This document shows, piece by piece, positions 3,740 to 23,254 of a stretch of DNA of 64,000 bases. The first letter of the stretch is position 1; each line of letters starts with the position of its first letter. Source of the DNA: Candidatus Poribacteria bacterium (GTDB taxonomy: Bacteria > Poribacteria > WGA-4E > WGA-3G). The notes beneath the pieces are model-generated. The model was given only the letters and a program-made list of their open reading frames with translations, was not told the origin of the DNA and ran no database searches. The DNA lies in NCBI GenBank assembly GCA_026706025.1, contig JAPOZO010000085.1:1-64000 (forward strand), in the 5' to 3' direction. The position numbers and the translations under genes are program-made.

Positions 3740-4450
3740 ATGAGATCTCGGCTTATAAGTGATAGGGGTGAAACTGTCACAATTGTCCGTCTATCGGATG
3801 ACAAAGGTGAAGAAACAATTGTTGCCAGTGATGTTTTGTGTCTAATAAGTCCCGTAGAGGGTCAATATGAACACTGGCAGGCAGCCTGTGAAGTGGGAAA
3901 TAAAGGCATCCGTAAAGGAGACATTCTCAGACGTGACAATGGATTAGAAATGCAGGTGTTAAGGGTTGAACCCGGTAAATTATCACGTAGCCGTGAGAAA
4001 ATATACTTAGATCTAAAAGAATATGATCGAGTGCCACAGTCTTCTCAGATGGATGTGGAAGATACACTGACGGATGACCTTCTTCCTAAACGTCTACTTC
4101 ATCATGTAGTTTTCCAAAAGGTATTACCGATTTTTATGCAAGGCTCTTATGGTCCTGCTGTGTTTGAAGCATTTAAACAGGTTGAAGTGGCTGTCCGAGA
4201 AGCAGGGGGTTATGCGGAGACCGATTACGGAACTAAATTGATGCGCATGGCATTCAACCCTGAAGATGGTGCTTTAACCGATCCACAGGATACAGAAAAA
4301 CAAGCGAGATCGGATATATTTGCTGGTGCAATTGGATCCTACAAAAACCCCGGAAGTCATCGGGATGTTGAGATTACCGCAGAGGAAGCGGCTGAGCTGA
4401 TAATCTTCGCGAGCCATCTCCTTCGTATCGTTGATTCGTGTAATCAATGA
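3740..4450 (+). CDS. TIGR02391 (Ymh) family protein
   Basis: A 236-residue protein. Residues about 1-95 form a beta-rich N-terminal domain; residues about 125-235 match the Ymh/TIGR02391 family, with the hallmark pattern GPAVFEAFKQVEVAVREAGG, then LMRMAF, a conserved FAGAIG and a final NPGSHRDV. The family is common in mobile and defence islands and has been linked to HEPN/abortive-infection-type helical folds; no biochemical role is established. GGAGGAG precedes the ATG by about 12 bases. Likely co-transcribed with the gene at 3263 (36-bp gap). Confidence 0.7.
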   Translation: MRSRLISDRGETVTIVRLSDDKGEETIVASDVLCLISPVEGQYEHWQAACEVGNKGIRKGDILRRDNGLEMQVLRVEPGKLSRSREKIYLDLKEYDRVPQSSQMDVEDTLTDDLLPKRLLHHVVFQKVLPIFMQGSYGPAVFEAFKQVEVAVREAGGYAETDYGTKLMRMAFNPEDGALTDPQDTEKQARSDIFAGAIGSYKNPGSHRDVEITAEEAAELIIFASHLLRIVDSCNQ

Positions 4451-4549: not shown

Positions 4550-5617
4550 ATGAGAAAGAGAAAAAGAAAGAGCGAACGAAAATTTTTGCTTTCGGACAAA
4601 TCATTTCTGCGCATGTTGAGTCCGGAACAACGGGAACAGTTAGATTCCAAACATAAGAGTGTCTATCCACCGATCTTATTAGTCGAGAACGCTCAACATG
4701 GGTTGGGCAAACCGAGTGCCTTACTTAACTTTAAGAACACTATAAGGGTGCCTCATTGGGTAGAACGGGCAAAAATGGAGTTGCTAATAGGGCCACCGCC
4801 TCGTTACTACAAAGTCGGAGCAAAAGTGCCGATCAAGTCAATCTATAACGCATCAGGTGAAGCGCGCGAAAAGATAGAAAAAGGTGCTGTTGGTATTGTG
4901 AACCAAATGGAAGCGGAAGCTGACAGGCTCAAAAAACACGTGCCCATATTACCGGGCAGAGACGTAAAACTCACGGCATTGACTGAAAACCACAAAAGTA
5001 TCTCTGACAAAGATCTTTTACGGCTGTTTAATCAAGCCTTGAGAGAGTACAGTCATAATCACCCACAAAGTCCATGCTCTCCTGTTCCAATCGGAATAGG
5101 TAATACAAAAATTCCTGAAATCAGGAAATTCCTAGATGAGTGCAAGGCGATTTGCAAGGTTGATACTCTGGGCAAAGCTTACAAATGGATTGCACAAATA
5201 TTCTATGAAGATTCTGAGTCCGTGTTAGACTTTTTATGCAATGGAGGTATCATACCAGTTTCAGCAGATGAACAATCTGAAATTTTCAACAGATTTAGAA
5301 GTGAAGGTGAACCACCGATCAGTAGTTTTGCTCCATACGCACTAATTACCATGAAGTTGTATCATACAATGTTCTTGTACCTTACTGAAAATCGAGAAAA
5401 TTCCTCGCCTCGAGAGGTGCTCAGGGATTTCGATTACTTGTTTTATGCTCTGGATGATTATGTTATTTTTGTATCTGCCGAGAAATGGCACAAGAAATGT
5501 ATAGAAGAGATCCCGCTCCTTAAAAATGTCCGTAAAAATTTCGTATTCATTACTCACAAAAACAAAAGTGAAGAGGAATACAAAAAGGGCTTGAAATCCA
5601 TTGGTATTAAAATGTAG
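4550..5617 (+). CDS. Uncharacterised protein with PIN-like C-terminus
   Basis: A 355-residue protein starting with a Lys/Arg-rich tail. The centre is helical. The C-terminus (about residues 285-350) has the pattern DFDYLFYALDDYVIFVSAEK followed by a KW/H residue pair, resembling the acidic end of a family of PIN-like proteins (D-x-x-YL-x-YL-x-x-C-x-x-F-x-S-x-D-K). The gene at 15196 has a comparable C-terminus. A metal-dependent nuclease role is possible but not shown. A 99-bp gap separates it from the Ymh gene. Confidence 0.55.
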   Translation: MRKRKRKSERKFLLSDKSFLRMLSPEQREQLDSKHKSVYPPILLVENAQHGLGKPSALLNFKNTIRVPHWVERAKMELLIGPPPRYYKVGAKVPIKSIYNASGEAREKIEKGAVGIVNQMEAEADRLKKHVPILPGRDVKLTALTENHKSISDKDLLRLFNQALREYSHNHPQSPCSPVPIGIGNTKIPEIRKFLDECKAICKVDTLGKAYKWIAQIFYEDSESVLDFLCNGGIIPVSADEQSEIFNRFRSEGEPPISSFAPYALITMKLYHTMFLYLTENRENSSPREVLRDFDYLFYALDDYVIFVSAEKWHKKCIEEIPLLKNVRKNFVFITHKNKSEEEYKKGLKSIGIKM

Positions 5618-14726: not shown

Positions 14727-14750
14727 AGGCATCATCGCAAGGATTTGTTT

Positions 14751-15113
14751 ATGAAATGGTATCAAATGCGTTGGGCGCAAAAGTATTGGGGAAAAGAAGC
14801 CAGAGAACGCTACCGTCGGTATCTCCAATCCGATGCGTGGAAAACAAAGCGAAAAGCCGTTTTAAAAGCCGCTGGATTCCGATGCCGTCGCTGTGGCGCA
14901 CCCGCAACAGAAGTACACCACGAGACCTACAAGCGAATCTACAACGAAAGGATGTCAGATTTAACAGCCCTATGTAGCAAATGCCATGAGGCAGCCCATA
15001 CTCGGACACCCAAACCCCGAAAGAAAAGCACGTCTGGTGAAAGGTACGGAACCCGAAAACCTAACCAGCGCAGATTTTATCGAAAACGCAAGGCAAAGAC
15101 AAGAAGTCGGTAA
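14751..15113 (+). CDS. HNH endonuclease
   Basis: A 120-residue protein. YRRYLQSDAWKTKRKAVLKA (about 19-38) precedes the zinc/HNH core: CRRCG (about 44-48), VHHETY (about 54-59, the HH catalytic pair) and CSKCH (about 74-78). The C-terminus is very basic. This is the typical compact HNH fold of phage, plasmid and McrA-like nucleases. ATG at 14751 follows AAGGA. It lies between two decayed integrase 5' ends (14172 and 15117). Confidence 0.85.
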   Translation: MKWYQMRWAQKYWGKEARERYRRYLQSDAWKTKRKAVLKAAGFRCRRCGAPATEVHHETYKRIYNERMSDLTALCSKCHEAAHTRTPKPRKKSTSGERYGTRKPNQRRFYRKRKAKTRSR

Positions 15114-17933: not shown

Positions 17934-18584
17934 ATGCAAAACCGACTCAAACAATTGCCGTTAAACGTCCAAAAACGGCTATACGAAATCGCAGGATTCG
18001 CTGGCACGAACTGCTCAGACTTCAATTCAACAGAATACAACCAAGCAACGACAGCCTACTTATTCGCAACACCCGAAGAGTTAAGAGATTTTCTTTTTGA
18101 CCACGCCAGATACAACCTCGAACACCGCATCAGTTGGCATGATGCGATACAAGAAGCCTATAGGACACCTCAACAAAGGCGCGTTTATCAGGAATATCTA
18201 CGATCTCCTGAATGGCAGCGAAAGCGTCAAGCGGTTCTGAATCGTGCGATGAAACCCGGTCCACCTAAGCCTCCTATCATCGTCCAGAGGACGCGCGATC
18301 AATATGGGCGTTTGATTGAATATATTGAAACCGAATGGAAACCGATTTGTGAACATAGGCACTCCATTTGTGAACGCAAGTGTGCCAGAGATGAAAAATT
18401 CAGCCACTTGAATTGTGAATGCAGGTGTTCAAATGTTGCCGAACAGGTGCATCACTGGAACTATGAACGTGTCGGAAAAGAGCGGATAGGAATGAAGTCT
18501 GAGGCATCAGAAGAAAACGATTTGATAGCACTTTGTCCCGAATGCCACGCCGCTTTGCATAATCAAGGAGAAGTCATCGGATAA
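17934..18584 (+). CDS. HNH endonuclease with a cysteine-rich insertion
   Basis: A 216-residue protein. YQEYLRSPEWQRKRQAVLNR (about 82-101) is the same lead-in helix as in the HNH protein at 14751. A long insert with many Cys residues (CEHRHSICERKCARDEK and CECRCS, about 138-165) probably forms a zinc knuckle. The catalytic part follows: QVHHWNYER (about 171-179) and CPECHAALH (about 200-208). GAAAGGA precedes the ATG. A nuclease of a mobile or defence island; target unknown. Confidence 0.8.
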   Translation: MQNRLKQLPLNVQKRLYEIAGFAGTNCSDFNSTEYNQATTAYLFATPEELRDFLFDHARYNLEHRISWHDAIQEAYRTPQQRRVYQEYLRSPEWQRKRQAVLNRAMKPGPPKPPIIVQRTRDQYGRLIEYIETEWKPICEHRHSICERKCARDEKFSHLNCECRCSNVAEQVHHWNYERVGKERIGMKSEASEENDLIALCPECHAALHNQGEVIG

Positions 18585-18737: not shown

Positions 18738-19381
18738 GTGACAAATTTTGACGAATCCGAAGTGCGAGAAATTGGACTCGGCGATCCAGACTACCCTAAA
18801 CTCTTGCGAGCAATAAGAAACCCTCCGAAAGCCCTCCGTTTCCGCTGAGACCTACCACCCAATTGGAAAATTATTGCGATTTCCGGGAGTCGTGAACCCG
18901 CACAGCGAGCACTTACGACCGCAGACAGAATTGGCAAGGTACTTGCAGAACACGGATACACCATTGTCCCGGGGCTCGCCGAAGGGTGCGACGAAGCTGC
19001 TGTTAAAGGCGCGCTTTCCGCAGGTGGAAACGTTGTGGGTGTCGTCCCGTGTGGACTCAAAGCCCTCCGATCCCAGCCCCGAAAAAGACTGGCTCATCAA
19101 ATCTTCGCTACCGGCGGTGCTGTCATTTCTGAATATGCGGATAATCTCTCAACAGTATTTAGACGGCACTATCTCCAGCGCAATGAAATTATCACTGGAC
19201 TTTCCGAAAAACTATCATCGTCGCGGCTGAGGAACGATCAGGGTCATCAGCGACCGCAAATCGAGCGTTAAAGCAAGGACGCGAGGTTATTATTACCCCA
19301 CATGTCAATACGACAATTGAGGGCGCAACGCTTGTTGCGAATCCTGGAGAACTGAAAGACGCGTTTGGTATTGCTCGCTAA
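18738..19381 (+). pseudogene. Broken DprA/Smf-like gene
   Basis: The concatenated reading gives GDPDYPKLLRAIRNPPKALR, a TGA stop (18846-18848), then WKIIAISGSREPAQRALTTA, VPGLAEGCDEAAVKGALSAG, GGAVISEYADN and RNEIITGLSEK, then a frameshift near 19210 and IVAAEERSGSSATANRALKQ onward to TAA at 19379. This is the Rossmann (LOG-like) core of DprA/Smf, the ssDNA- and RecA-loading protein of transformation, which also occurs as a defence-island member. One nonsense codon and one frameshift inactivate it. GTG start. Confidence 0.75.
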
Positions 19382-19476: not shown

Positions 19477-19632
19477 ATGGAAACAATAAGAAAAACACAA
19501 GAGGAAATCGAAGAAGCCCAACGAACTCAGGATCAGGAGATGCTAAGACGGCACAACGAAATTGTCAGCGAACTCCGAAACTCGGTAGCGGCAGTGAAGG
19601 AACTCACTGAGCTCACCAGAAATATACGTTAA
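19477..19632 (+). CDS. Small coiled-coil protein (doubtful)
   Basis: A 51-residue, entirely charged helix (ETIRKTQEEIEEAQRTQDQE onward) with heptad-like spacing, ending just before a good terminator. There is no clear Shine-Dalgarno; a start at 19450 is the alternative. It could be a small antitoxin- or anti-protein-like factor, or chance. Confidence 0.35.
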   Translation: METIRKTQEEIEEAQRTQDQEMLRRHNEIVSELRNSVAAVKELTELTRNIR

Positions 19633-19648
19633 AATTCTTGTGCTATTC

Positions 19649-19687
19649 AGGCGTGTCCCGTAATAACGGTCACGCCTTTTTTGTTTT
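19649..19687 (+). terminator. Intrinsic terminator
   Basis: AGGCGTG (19649-19655) pairs with CACGCCT (19671-19677), followed by a run of T. It closes the 12-19.6 kb accessory gene strip. Confidence 0.75.
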
Positions 19688-19925
19688 TAAGTACCGGTGA
19701 GATGGTGTAGGGTGTTTTCTTTTCGTGTGATATTGCAGGTGTCCGTCGCTATGTTGGGTAGACTGCGGAAACGGATTAGATTACTGTCCCTCCTCGCCGT
19801 GCGATTTGCCTGTGTGTCGGCGTTATCAGAAGCAGGCGAGTCTATCATCGTAGAACCTTCGCTCTCAGATTCATCAATCGACACGCTGTCAATGAGAAGA
19901 CCACAAAAAGTCAATAAAAAAAATA

Positions 19926-20346
19926 TTGTATTTTTTTTATACATATGTTATACTGTATCTTGGCATCCGTAAAATCCAAGATGGATGGTTCGGCGAGTGT
20001 GAGAGACTCCCGAACCGCGGCACTGCCAAGTGTAGGTTGCCAGTGCGGTTTAAATATATCATATATCTTAATTGATGTGTGTGATAATTTAGACAGCGTA
20101 GTGATTTTACGCGATTTTTCTTTTTGAAATCTCGTGTCATTACTATTGGACGTTGGAGACGGATTTCTGAGATAGACCTTCTATCTCCCGTCTCCGCCCG
20201 CTGGCAATAGGGTTATACGTCCAGCCGCGTTCTATTTCAATCGCAACGCGGCAAAACGTCCAAACCCCACTAACATTCAATACATTGATTGACGTGCTTC
20301 ACACCTTGCACTCGAACTATGTGTGCTGGTTTTGTCCGCGAAGCAC
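19926..20346 (+). ncRNA. Promoter and long, highly structured leader RNA
   Basis: A near-consensus promoter, TTGTAT (19926-19931), 17-nt spacer, TATACT (19949-19954), precedes 390 bp without a gene but with five strong stems. CTTGGCA/TGCCAAG (19959-19965/20024-20030) encloses GGTTCGG/CCGAACC (19987-20016). GGAGACGG/CCGTCTCC (20155-20195) has an inner GAGATAG/CTATCTC stem. GCCGCGTT pairs with AACGCGGC (20224-20252), and GTGCTTC with GAAGCAC (20294-20346). It ends about 30 bp before the winged-helix gene, so it may be its regulatory 5' leader or a separate RNA. No known family recognised. Confidence 0.55.
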
Positions 20347-20374
20347 TTAACATCTGCCCATGAAAGGTTTTATC

Positions 20375-20734
20375 ATGTCACAAGCTAACCTACACCACGA
20401 AGGCGATGTATTGGAAGGCATGATCTCTTTGGACATCCCTGCTTTCGTTCGCGCTGCTGTCCGGCATAAAGTGAACAAGAATCAAATTTTAATCTACCTG
20501 TACCTACTCACGGAAACCCCCGAATCAACGCATAAGATGAAGCAGTTTTTTCCAATCGCTAAAGAGAACGATTTAACTCGAAGCGAGATTCTGGTATGGC
20601 TGCACCTCTCCTACGGCGGTTCGGAGAAACCAAAGCATATCAGCCGGAAGCTGCGTATTCCGCCTCGCTTTGTAGAAAACGCGCTCACTGTTTTGGAAGA
20701 GAAAGGTATTATCAAGAGTGGGAAGGTATCCTGA
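20375..20734 (+). CDS. Winged-helix DNA-binding regulator
   Basis: A 119-residue protein. The C-terminal part (HISRKLRIPPRFVENALTVL then EEKGIIK, about residues 85-115) is a clear winged helix-turn-helix; the N-terminal half is a helical domain with NKNQILIYLYLL. Size and layout resemble small replication or MarR/DnaD-like plasmid regulators. GAAAGG sits before the ATG at 20375, with an upstream ATG at 20360. It lies directly behind the structured leader RNA, suggesting post-transcriptional control. Confidence 0.6.
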   Translation: MSQANLHHEGDVLEGMISLDIPAFVRAAVRHKVNKNQILIYLYLLTETPESTHKMKQFFPIAKENDLTRSEILVWLHLSYGGSEKPKHISRKLRIPPRFVENALTVLEEKGIIKSGKVS

Positions 20735-21268
20735 CTGGCAGCAACATTTTGAAATCAGAGATGTTATCTTGCTTGTGAAAAATAACTTTTTGGATATGGA
20801 TTTGCTTCCGTCACAAAGCGGATTTTGTTCATATTTATATTTGCGCGCGATTTTCATTCGGAGATGGTGCGGAAGAAGGCAGATTTAGCCGTTGCGTCAA
20901 GCGAGGTTGTTTTTCTTGATGTTTAGAGGGTTACCACAGCGAAAGAAGTTTTAGAATGCGTTATAGACGATTCTGTGCGTTTTTTTCACTAACAGTTTCC
21001 GAATCAGTGCGATCGAGTATGAGTTGGTCCGGGTTCGCTAAAATTTGTCGATTCAGGATGCCTAAAGATCCGCAGAACGCCGCCCATCCGAGAACACAAA
21101 AAACGCTAACGGAAAAAGGTGACTGGTGATCAGAAAACAGGGTATTTCATAAAGCGGCGTTGGCTTGTCGTTTCTACAGCACAACTCAATGAAAGAGATT
21201 TGTGAAAATTGGAGTTATTGTGCGAATTCCATTTCGTCTATAACAGCGGAAAAAAGGAGGCACCGCGC
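20735..21268 (+). other. Non-coding or degenerate stretch
   Basis: About 530 bp in which I find no supported gene on either strand, no strong hairpin and no repeat. The AAAAAGGAGG at 21251-21260 serves the next gene. Confidence 0.4.
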
Positions 21269-22207
21269 ATGACATATAGATGTTGGGTTTTACTCTGTGT
21301 TCTGTGTCTCTGTCTTTATGGCTGTGGCGATGAAGGTCTTGAAAGCCTGTATGATCCCGCCGTTCAAGCTGCGCCGCCGGTTGCTGTGACAGGCGTGCCA
21401 TCAGAGCTCCAAGAACAGTTATGGGGCAACCGTGAAGCATATATTGAAAAACTTACATGGGCGTTACAACACGGCGAAGATTTCAGACCTGTCGCCGAAG
21501 ACTACTTGGAAAGGATTTGTCAACTCGATCACCAACGGGCATTCTATCAGAAATATATTGATGCCGGGGGTGTCGCGATCCTTGCGAGTATCAGCGTTGC
21601 AGATGAAACTTTACAGATGGCGCGGAACATCGTTTTTCAAATGACGGCGAAGCACCCAGAAATCCGGGAATACCTCACCCTCGAACACAAACATTACCAG
21701 ATTATCATCAATGGCTATTATGAAAACATTCGCGGGATTCCAGAGTTCACAGACCATCACATTCGAGAATTTCCGATACCACACTGTGGTGCTGCTTTTG
21801 GGAACGCATATTGCGTTTCGCAGATCTGGCATCTCCCCGAACAGAAACGCGATAGAATTCAGAGCCCGGTGATGCAGACGTTTGTGCACGAGTTTGCGCA
21901 TGCGATCCATCTTTTTGCCATCAGCGAATTGGACCCCGGGTTCAACGCGCGCTTAAAGCAGGCGTATGAGACAGCTGTCGCATCCGGGACATGGAAGGAT
22001 CTGTATGCCGAAACAAATTATCGTGAGTACTGAGCGGAAGGAGTCAAGATGTGGTATTACCACGTAACAGATCTGCCAATCCCGCATCATTCTGAGAGTT
22101 GGGGCCCCCTCTTTGAGACGTATGCAGCGTTTGCCGAACACGATCCGTTGCTTGTAGGGCTGCTTGATGAGTGGTTTCATCGTGTCTCGTTTCGAGGGCT
22201 TTACTAA
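21269..22207 (+). pseudogene. Lipoprotein zinc metallopeptidase broken by a nonsense codon
   Basis: The N-terminus CWVLLCVLCLCLYGC (lipobox LYGC) marks an exported lipoprotein. TFVHEFAHAIHL provides the HExxH zinc motif. The frame stops at TGA 22031-22033, exactly where the paralogue at 22379 has Trp in EYWAEG, whose Glu is the likely third zinc ligand. Downstream the same frame continues AEGVKMWYYHVTD to TAA at 22205. The truncated product lacks the third ligand and should be inactive. Strong AAGGAGG before the ATG at 21269. The fold resembles lethal-factor-like gluzincins. Confidence 0.75.
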
Positions 22208-22378
22208 TGAAGATTGCAAAGTTAGTGGAACTGCCAGCCGTCAGTTTTGGCTACTCTTTTATGCACCGTAGACAGACCTCTTCGATGCTTTCAAACGACA
22301 GGCGGTGCCACACACCACTGAAGATTTTGATGACAGAAGCCGAGAACACCGATGAGGTCATCTCGAAAAGAGCCTCTT

Positions 22379-23254
22379 ATGCCCAATATATTCAGATCAC
22401 ATTTACTTTTTCTTTTAATGCTCGTGTGTCTATTTGGGTGTAGCGAGGCGCATTTTATCGACCTATTATATGCACCCGAAGCAGAACAATGGGGTGTTGT
22501 CGGTGCTGTTCCGCCTGAGATACAAGAAATATTGTGGAGTGGCTCTGATGAATTATTGAGAGCGGCGCAGGAAGCACATTACACGCGGTATATTGATGCC
22601 GGTGGTATAGCGATTATCGGGAGCCGTTTTGTGGACGACGAGATCTTCCGAATGGCGCGCGATATTGTTTTAGAGATGACATCAAAACGCCCGGAGTTAC
22701 GGGAAGCGTTGTCGCCGCAAATGGGGCATTATCAGATTCTTATCAATGGTCGTTTCGAGGAGCTTCAGAATATACCGGAGTATGCGGATATAGAGGGAAA
22801 AGAGCCTACACCGGGTCGCTGTGTGTTGCCTTTGTATTGCTATTCAATGTACTGGGACCACCCCTATTCGCCAGGGAACAGTCGGGAGACAAGATTCACA
22901 GGCATCCTCGAAGTTTTTGTGCATGAGTTCGCACATGCGATACATGTTGCAATAGGGGTACATAGAGGGTTAGGTAAAAAACCTTTGGATCCAGGGTTCG
23001 ACGATCGGTTGCTGCAGGCTTATGAAAATGCTGTGGCATTAGGGATCTGGTCGGGTGAGTATACAGAGACGAACTATCAGGAATACTGGGCAGAAGGTGT
23101 TCAAGCTTGGTATTACCTGGTGACAGATTCACCGCATCCTATCAGAAAAGATCAAGCGTTTGAAACGTACGCGGCATTTGCGGAGCGGGACCCTTTGCTT
23201 GTGGCATTGCTGCAAGAATGGTTTCACGAAACGTCATTTTGGGGAAGATACTAA
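22379..23254 (+). CDS. Lipoprotein zinc metallopeptidase (gluzincin type)
   Basis: A 291-residue intact paralogue of the preceding pseudogene. Signal and lipobox: hydrophobic run LLFLLMLVCLFGC, Cys at about residue 20. The zinc site VHEFAHAIH (about 180-188) and a Glu in YWAEGVQAWYY (about 237-247) give an HExxH...E gluzincin arrangement, as in lethal-factor-like M34-type domains. It acts outside the cytoplasm, anchored in a membrane; substrate unknown. The start is placed at ATG 22379; an in-frame ATG at 22352 is possible. Confidence 0.7.
   Translation: MPNIFRSHLLFLLMLVCLFGCSEAHFIDLLYAPEAEQWGVVGAVPPEIQEILWSGSDELLRAAQEAHYTRYIDAGGIAIIGSRFVDDEIFRMARDIVLEMTSKRPELREALSPQMGHYQILINGRFEELQNIPEYADIEGKEPTPGRCVLPLYCYSMYWDHPYSPGNSRETRFTGILEVFVHEFAHAIHVAIGVHRGLGKKPLDPGFDDRLLQAYENAVALGIWSGEYTETNYQEYWAEGVQAWYYLVTDSPHPIRKDQAFETYAAFAERDPLLVALLQEWFHETSFWGRY

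Follow-up and report, generated by a model that had tools for sequence, protein, structure and literature searches.

Processive antitermination leaders, such as EAR and put, are promoter-proximal structured RNAs found ahead of different, often long genes. Qrr RNAs are present in several homologous copies per genome, each with its own promoter, which is sigma-54-like. The 6S RNA (RF00013) and the bacterial RNase P RNA (RF00010) are heavily structured and fall in the length class of the RNA considered here. The c-di-GMP riboswitches and the ydaO-motif are structured 5′ leaders and, in the sections consulted of the survey by Weinberg et al. (2010), are among the cis-regulatory RNAs which are not often located upstream of homologous genes (PMC2864571). 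Poribacteria are not mentioned in those sections.

Poribacteria are rich in genes encoding WD40 and other eukaryote-like repeat proteins, and these often have signal peptides or membrane helices (PMC3909097). The terms 'small RNA' and 'non-coding' do not occur in the main text of that article, and our literature searches yielded no description of a poribacterial regulatory RNA.

Here we describe a structured RNA family that is new and has no Rfam entry, from this uncultured phylum of sponge-dwelling bacteria. The copy analysed lies in a stretch of 64,000 nucleotides (the window) on contig 85 of a Candidatus Poribacteria assembly of 6.27 Mb and 103 contigs (G000). Like the EAR and put leaders, it is promoter-proximal and stands before differing genes, but it has no Rfam match. 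It resembles the Qrr RNAs in being multi-copy and provided with promoters, and two of its loci adjoin sigma-54 activator genes; in contrast to Qrr RNAs it is much longer, has a sigma-70-like promoter and keeps a fixed orientation to the downstream gene. With the c-di-GMP and ydaO-motif RNAs, as far as these are described in the sections consulted, it shares the position of a structured leader ahead of non-homologous genes, but it has no sequence or covariance match to them, is limited to one bacterial family and includes a largely invariant core with competing pairings. Judged from sequence, the element is moderately likely to be one copy of a lineage-specific family of promoter-linked 5′ leader RNAs acting in cis. 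This raises the question of one conserved RNA serving as leader for unrelated, exchangeable genes.

The preliminary description of this locus had assigned the RNA to no known family, and an Rfam 15 search of the 64-kb window agrees, with no family reaching its gathering score. At a permissive threshold, 19600-20800 gave only a chance-level match to STnc230 (20.5 bits against 50), over the promoter, and eight loci with type II copies (see below) gave no match at E up to 1. Identity with RNase P RNA, 6S RNA or other Rfam families was rejected, none having a match in the window. RNase P RNA is found elsewhere in the genome (contig C94). 6S RNA was detected neither in the window nor in the genome, but its absence from the genome means little since the same search detects it in only 5 of 14 control genomes.

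Promoter and secondary structure

A sigma-70-like promoter is present on the forward strand at 19926-19954, with TTGTAT (19926-19931) and TATACT (19949-19954) separated by 17 nt. This spacing had already been remarked on; sequence and spacing are both kept in copies from different loci, and in most of the 48 full copies the promoter stands at a constant distance ahead of the RNA. Transcription probably starts at about 19960, judging from the position of the -10 hexamer. The conserved RNA (19957-20265, forward strand) is about 305 nt long and together with the promoter spans 19926-20265. It had been thought to extend to 20346, but conservation stops near 20265 and the rest is 5′ UTR of the next gene (20266-20374), with a ribosome-binding-like GAAAGG at 20362-20367 in a UGAAAGG region common to several other loci.

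The segment 19955-20358 folds with -150.9 kcal/mol compared to a mean of -104.4 ± 5.2 for dinucleotide shuffles (z -8.9; reached by 0 of 100 shuffles). The z value is -7.8 for 19959-20265 alone, -0.25 for the adjoining stretch upstream and -0.4 for that downstream (20266-20372), and it ranges from -5.2 to -9.2 in 12 sampled copies of the 48. The minus strand likewise folds well (z -6.9), as expected of inverted repeats, and strand assignment therefore rests on the promoter and the positions of the genes.

Covariation was assessed in an alignment (A1) of 37 copies with a mean pairwise identity of 0.78. It predates, and so excludes, 18 stretches fetched later, and it leaves out the partial copies L067, L072, L074 and L075 and the fragments L077-L080. 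Across the 37 copies, 96.4% of cells in a structure of ten helices are paired. The preliminary description had named a lack of covariation as grounds for giving up the RNA; double-sided changes are in fact present in 18 of 77 pairs (54 cells), and none of 500 shuffles equals any of five covariation measures. Shifting the 3′ partners by 1-3 columns reduces pairing from 96% to 38-46%. Compensatory changes thus exceed chance in these copies (type I), and also in type II, where they affect 12 of 27 pairs. The analysis shows a genuine, structured RNA subject to purifying selection, and it is virtually certain that the window element is a conserved structured RNA. The original proposal of a structured, promoter-linked, non-coding RNA is borne out by the folding energies, the covariation and the conserved promoter.

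The 5′ end carries the motif UUGGCAUCC (19960-19968), of which GGCAUCC is found in all 37 aligned copies. Hairpin H1 (19985-19998 with 20006-20018) is 97.3% paired, with 4 of 12 pairs double-changed; C-G has become G-C in 5 copies, and the reverse exchange is seen in 6. Hairpin H2 (20020-20046; GCACUG C CAA / UUG C CAGUGC, with a C-C mismatch) is the nearly invariant core of the family: 99.7% of its cells are paired, with zero double changes in the 37 copies, and the core is found again in type II. Within 20048-20094 lie a long helix, H3 (20048-20061 with 20082-20094), and a hairpin, H4 (20063-20067 with 20074-20078); this segment includes the conserved strand UAUAUCAUA. Helix H5 (20099-20103 with 20141-20145; 3 of 5 pairs double-changed, for example U-A to C-G in 4 copies) encloses hairpin H6 (20113-20120 with 20125-20131; 2 of 6 pairs double-changed).

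The 3′ domain (20147-20262) is closed by helix H7 (20147-20154 with 20255-20262; 92.9% paired, 1 of 8 pairs double-changed). The nested stem described earlier at 20155-20195 is real and conserved, and corresponds to H8 (20155-20162 with 20188-20195; 99.7% of cells paired) with H9 inside it (20170-20175 with 20181-20186; 99.1%). Hairpin H10 (20196-20214) follows, with the conserved loop CUGGCAA at 20201-20207. The stem reported at 20224-20252 does form in the window copy (GCCGCGUU...AACGCGGC) but is an insertion private to it (1 of 37 copies) rather than a feature of the family; three further copies carry different inserts at this spot.

Two pairings could compete with H2. In one, the UUGGCA of the 5′ end would bind the 5′ arm of H2 at UGCCAA (20024-20029); in the other, the loop of H10 (CUGGCAA) is complementary to UUGCCAG (20037-20043) in the 3′ arm. 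Together they are kept in 97.9% of cells, and one competing pair is broken in 7 of 37 copies; being invariant, with zero double changes and hence without covariation in type I, they are candidates only. The sole source of support for the 5′-end pairing is the diverged type II copies. There GGCAG and CUGCC take the place of the competing bases, and a similar UUGCC lies further towards the 3′ end.

A coding function was rejected, no frame being open in all 48 copies. The earlier statement that there is no reading frame thus holds for the family, although short mechanically called ORFs exist in the window copy: one of 60 aa at 19945 begins just before the -10 hexamer, ahead of the likely transcription start. 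Nor do we claim an internal promoter with a second transcript, since the stretch concerned is the covarying hairpin H6 and most full copies fit the consensus poorly; in some full copies the same place reads TTGATT-17-TATCAT. Three diverged homologues consist of the 3′ domain only (L078, 3990-4118; L079, 4010-4135; L080, 4041-4168, minus strand) and have a strong TTGACT-17-TATAAT directly ahead of it. The 3′ domain may also occur as a separate short RNA.

A second type of copy and the distribution of the family

A covariance model of the 5′ half of the RNA (R1) gave weak matches in its own genome (E 0.1-3.6) which had in common the core GCACUGCCAUA...UAUGACAGC with a long helix and either UAUCA or UAGCA after it. 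These are referred to as type II. A second model (R2) was constructed from nine type II sequences from this genome and its relatives. In the same genome R2 finds 12 places at E ≤0.01, nine of type II and three of type I. It has matches in 9 of the 13 genomes searched, all within the genus, and in none of four from other families of the order. Within the 64 kb of the window the model recovers the present RNA at 19961-20121 (E 1.4e-4), the only other match being at chance level (E 4). The type II seeds were chosen from sub-threshold matches to the type I model and from a motif scan, with a risk of ascertainment, and the R2 matches to the window and to type I are therefore supportive rather than independent.

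Among 33 type II copies, the 12 double-changed pairs include 8 of the 11 in the long helix, the counterpart of H3, in an alignment fitted to the model and so biased towards structure. Types I and II are likely to be of common descent. At one locus (L070) a type I RNA (4116-4415), a winged-helix gene and a type II RNA (5218-5331) follow one another on one strand; the type II copy is served by a TTGACT-17-TATAAT promoter of its own and precedes a small ORF resembling a secreted protein. Two core-like hairpin-plus-tail motifs are present in tandem at another (L166, about 255-470, genome G011).

The genome containing the window has four type I copies, the three others at 75-80% identity, and carrying genomes have one to five. 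By blastn, 26 of 60 genomes surveyed carry the element, its own included, all of one genus. With R1 it was found in 35 of the 82 genomes of the class, every match lying within one family (35 of its 58 genomes, in two of its three genera, against none of 24 outside); above 40 genomes the R1 filters are stricter, and weak copies may be missed. A search of public records with the core pattern matched 35 loci, of which 32 are from Candidatus Poribacteria. The other three, from Colwellia (L108), Selenomonas (L109) and 'bacterium H5_UNCL2' (L089), were discarded as chance pattern matches with dissimilar flanks and no covariance-model match.

Orientation and nature of the neighbouring genes

Grouping the 48 full copies by the sequence ahead of them gives 14 groups, and by the sequence behind them 33. 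Of the 45 type I copies with a downstream ORF, 44 have the first such ORF in the same direction as the RNA (42 of 43 with a stricter ORF rule), as do 30 of 32 among the 33 type II copies, so that both types occupy the position of a cis-leader. Upstream ORFs of type I copies are mixed (26 minus, 20 plus). Counting only the 14 upstream groups as independent, the probability of an all-plus arrangement is 6e-5. ORFs were called mechanically and single neighbours may be wrong, which includes the sole type I exception (L054) and the two of type II (L239, L265). A long gap of variable size, from 37 to about 900 nt, separates the RNA from the gene.

In the window the RNA is followed by a gene for a winged-helix protein (20375-20734, forward strand), which probably starts at the ATG at 20375 rather than at 20360, to judge from the alignment of seven homologues. 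The protein has no PDB match, and its TrmB/MarR-like Pfam matches are weak, all under the curated cut-offs. The RNA had been presented as the leader of this regulator, a link that does not hold for the family: only 6 of the 48 full copies precede the gene (the window copy, L063, L065, L069, L070 and L073), as does the truncated copy L067, while L041 is read as having a remnant of it. A protein search found 14 places with winged-helix homologues in 8 of 57 genomes; the RNA is directly upstream in 7 of them and not within about 1.5 kb in the other 7. The winged-helix gene was rejected as an obligate partner on both counts. A second homologue in the genome of the window (contig 93, 55661-55936; L193) has two stops and no RNA nearby.

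Other downstream products include WD40, N6 DNA methylase, FabA-like and Omp85-domain proteins. They define no single pathway, and their only common trait is an export-like N-terminus. As called by a home-made hydropathy rule rather than SignalP, and with single-linkage clustering that placed 17 proteins into one cluster, such N-termini are found in 27 of 42 first-downstream clusters (types I and II) versus 23 of 106 upstream (p 1.5e-6 by Fisher's test). Comparison with clusters further downstream (39 of 101) gives p 0.004; among the ORFs of the window the count is 9 of 51. The protein behind the window copy itself, the winged-helix protein, is not exported. Control of export as the purpose of the RNA is a statistical lead.

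The largest groups are three loci, with Pfam run on one protein per locus. At locus A, 21 copies lie beside an NtrC-type response regulator gene with Response_reg and Sigma54_activat domains; the 11 copies of locus B follow a Sigma54_activat gene, and the 3 of locus C adjoin a B12-binding radical-SAM gene. At locus A the halves of the RNA are 88% and 85% identical, compared to 43% for the next 100 bases and 26% for the downstream gene region; at locus B the values are 78% and 77%, 44% and 29% (first 20 of 28 and 20 of 36 sequence pairs, respectively). The promoter box is also better kept (79% at A, 84% at B) than the upstream spacer (51% and 68%), but the upstream coding region of locus B has 79% identity, so that on this side the RNA (77-78%) exceeds only the spacer. 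These identities argue that the RNA has been kept while the gene behind it was exchanged, nearly always for one in the same direction. At locus A a dispersed repeat of about 120 bp lies some 280 bases before the RNA in most copies and in some again after it (for example L056, 3816-3930 and 4391-4522). It may take part in recombination by which the downstream gene is exchanged.

Possible modes of action

Transcription from about 19960 would proceed through the RNA into the downstream gene, which the RNA would control in cis. How it might do so is more tentative. Near-invariant H2 (GCACUGCCAA...UUGCCAGUGC) may be in competition with two other pairings, UUGGCA:UGCCAA between one of its arms and the 5′ end and UUGCCAG:CUGGCAA between the other arm and the H10 loop. 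A signal or protein bound at the core could then move the 3′ domain from the H7/H10 fold to a terminator-like stem with a U-run behind it (in most copies), or back. In the window copy, which has no U-run, the output could instead be a change in access to the ribosome-binding site. We regard such a conformational switch, acting on termination or translation, as a tentative model. The many unrelated and mostly exported proteins behind the RNA make a general physiological state a more likely signal than the metabolite of one pathway.

The terminator-like stem (GGGUAUGCGU with ACGU...AUACCC) precedes a T-run in many copies, and a run of at least five T follows the RNA in 33 of 48. This alternative stem shows no covariation (82.1% of cells paired, with shuffles as good or better), and the window copy forms a comparable stem without the T-run. 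A terminator or attenuator was accordingly demoted from an established part of the RNA to a suggestion.

A narrower form of the cis-leader reading is a riboswitch proper, with H2, its C-C mismatch and the conserved UAUAUCA strand as an aptamer for a metabolite or second messenger and the 3′ domain as expression platform. The leader position, the combination of invariant core and variable periphery, and the preservation of this core in type II despite altered helices are all in keeping with it, as is the diversity of the downstream genes, which recalls the c-di-GMP and ydaO RNAs as described in the sections consulted (PMC2864571). We nevertheless consider it somewhat doubtful: no ligand can be named, the downstream genes indicate no pathway, the range is one family of Poribacteria, and the proposed platform is the part without covariation support.

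A broader form of the cis-acting reading takes in both types. About a dozen paralogous leaders per genome would form a superfamily providing shared post-transcriptional control, or a module for mRNA addressing, for the exported proteome of these sponge symbionts. Unrelated genes for exported proteins would be swapped in, in one orientation, behind a constant platform of promoter and RNA; they would include genes for WD40 repeat proteins such as have been proposed to act on the host. As it stands this is speculative and rather unlikely. If the cis-acting reading itself is true, the RNA offers an approach to how exported proteins are controlled in sponge symbionts.

The RNA could also be a free-standing, multi-copy RNA acting in trans, made from its own promoter, ending at the U-run, and pairing with targets or binding a protein through the invariant UUGGCAUCC 5′ end or the CUGGCAA loop. 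Its conserved promoter, the T-runs, which could mark a simple RNA end, the invariance of GGCAUCC and the survival of the RNA where the winged-helix gene is lost or decayed are what such a gene would lead one to expect. A free gene should however be indifferent to the orientation of its neighbours, and the next gene is co-directional in 44 of 45 cases though the genes differ; position is thus not independent of the neighbour. The lack of covariation in the terminator-like stem and of a T-run in the window copy also tell against an RNA that ends there, and we judge this explanation quite unlikely.

It is highly improbable that the unit of promoter, RNA and winged-helix gene derives from a mobile element, as its relic or its cargo, having been dispersed by transposition and retained by chance. 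The presence of the unit at several unrelated loci (14 upstream groups), the sporadic and decaying winged-helix gene and the repeat of about 120 bp flanking the RNA on either side in some copies of locus A are suggestive of mobility, but at orthologous loci the RNA is strongly conserved relative to its surroundings. A phage or plasmid origin was rejected, with no match in 50,697 phage and 72,556 plasmid records and none to the exact core pattern in viral contigs. Finally, a regulatory or recombination site acting as DNA would account for the high conservation of the promoter and first transcribed bases and for inverted repeats that fold on either strand, but scarcely for compensatory changes in multi-branched, long-range helices with a fixed promoter orientation, and can be set aside almost entirely.

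Several other ORFs of the window deserve mention. Upstream of the RNA, two overlapping frames at 18874-19271 resemble a broken DprA/Smf-type gene; the 118-aa frame that was examined has no Pfam match. HNH-like spacing of cysteines and histidines is found in ORFs at 14745-15113 and 17934-18584, the latter with a weak HNH match (E 0.32). Downstream, two related lipoprotein-like ORFs (21209-22033 and 22352-23254) share a HEFAHAIH motif, and the second matches the ATLF domain family below threshold only (E 0.047). From the motif, we take them to be perhaps zinc peptidases.
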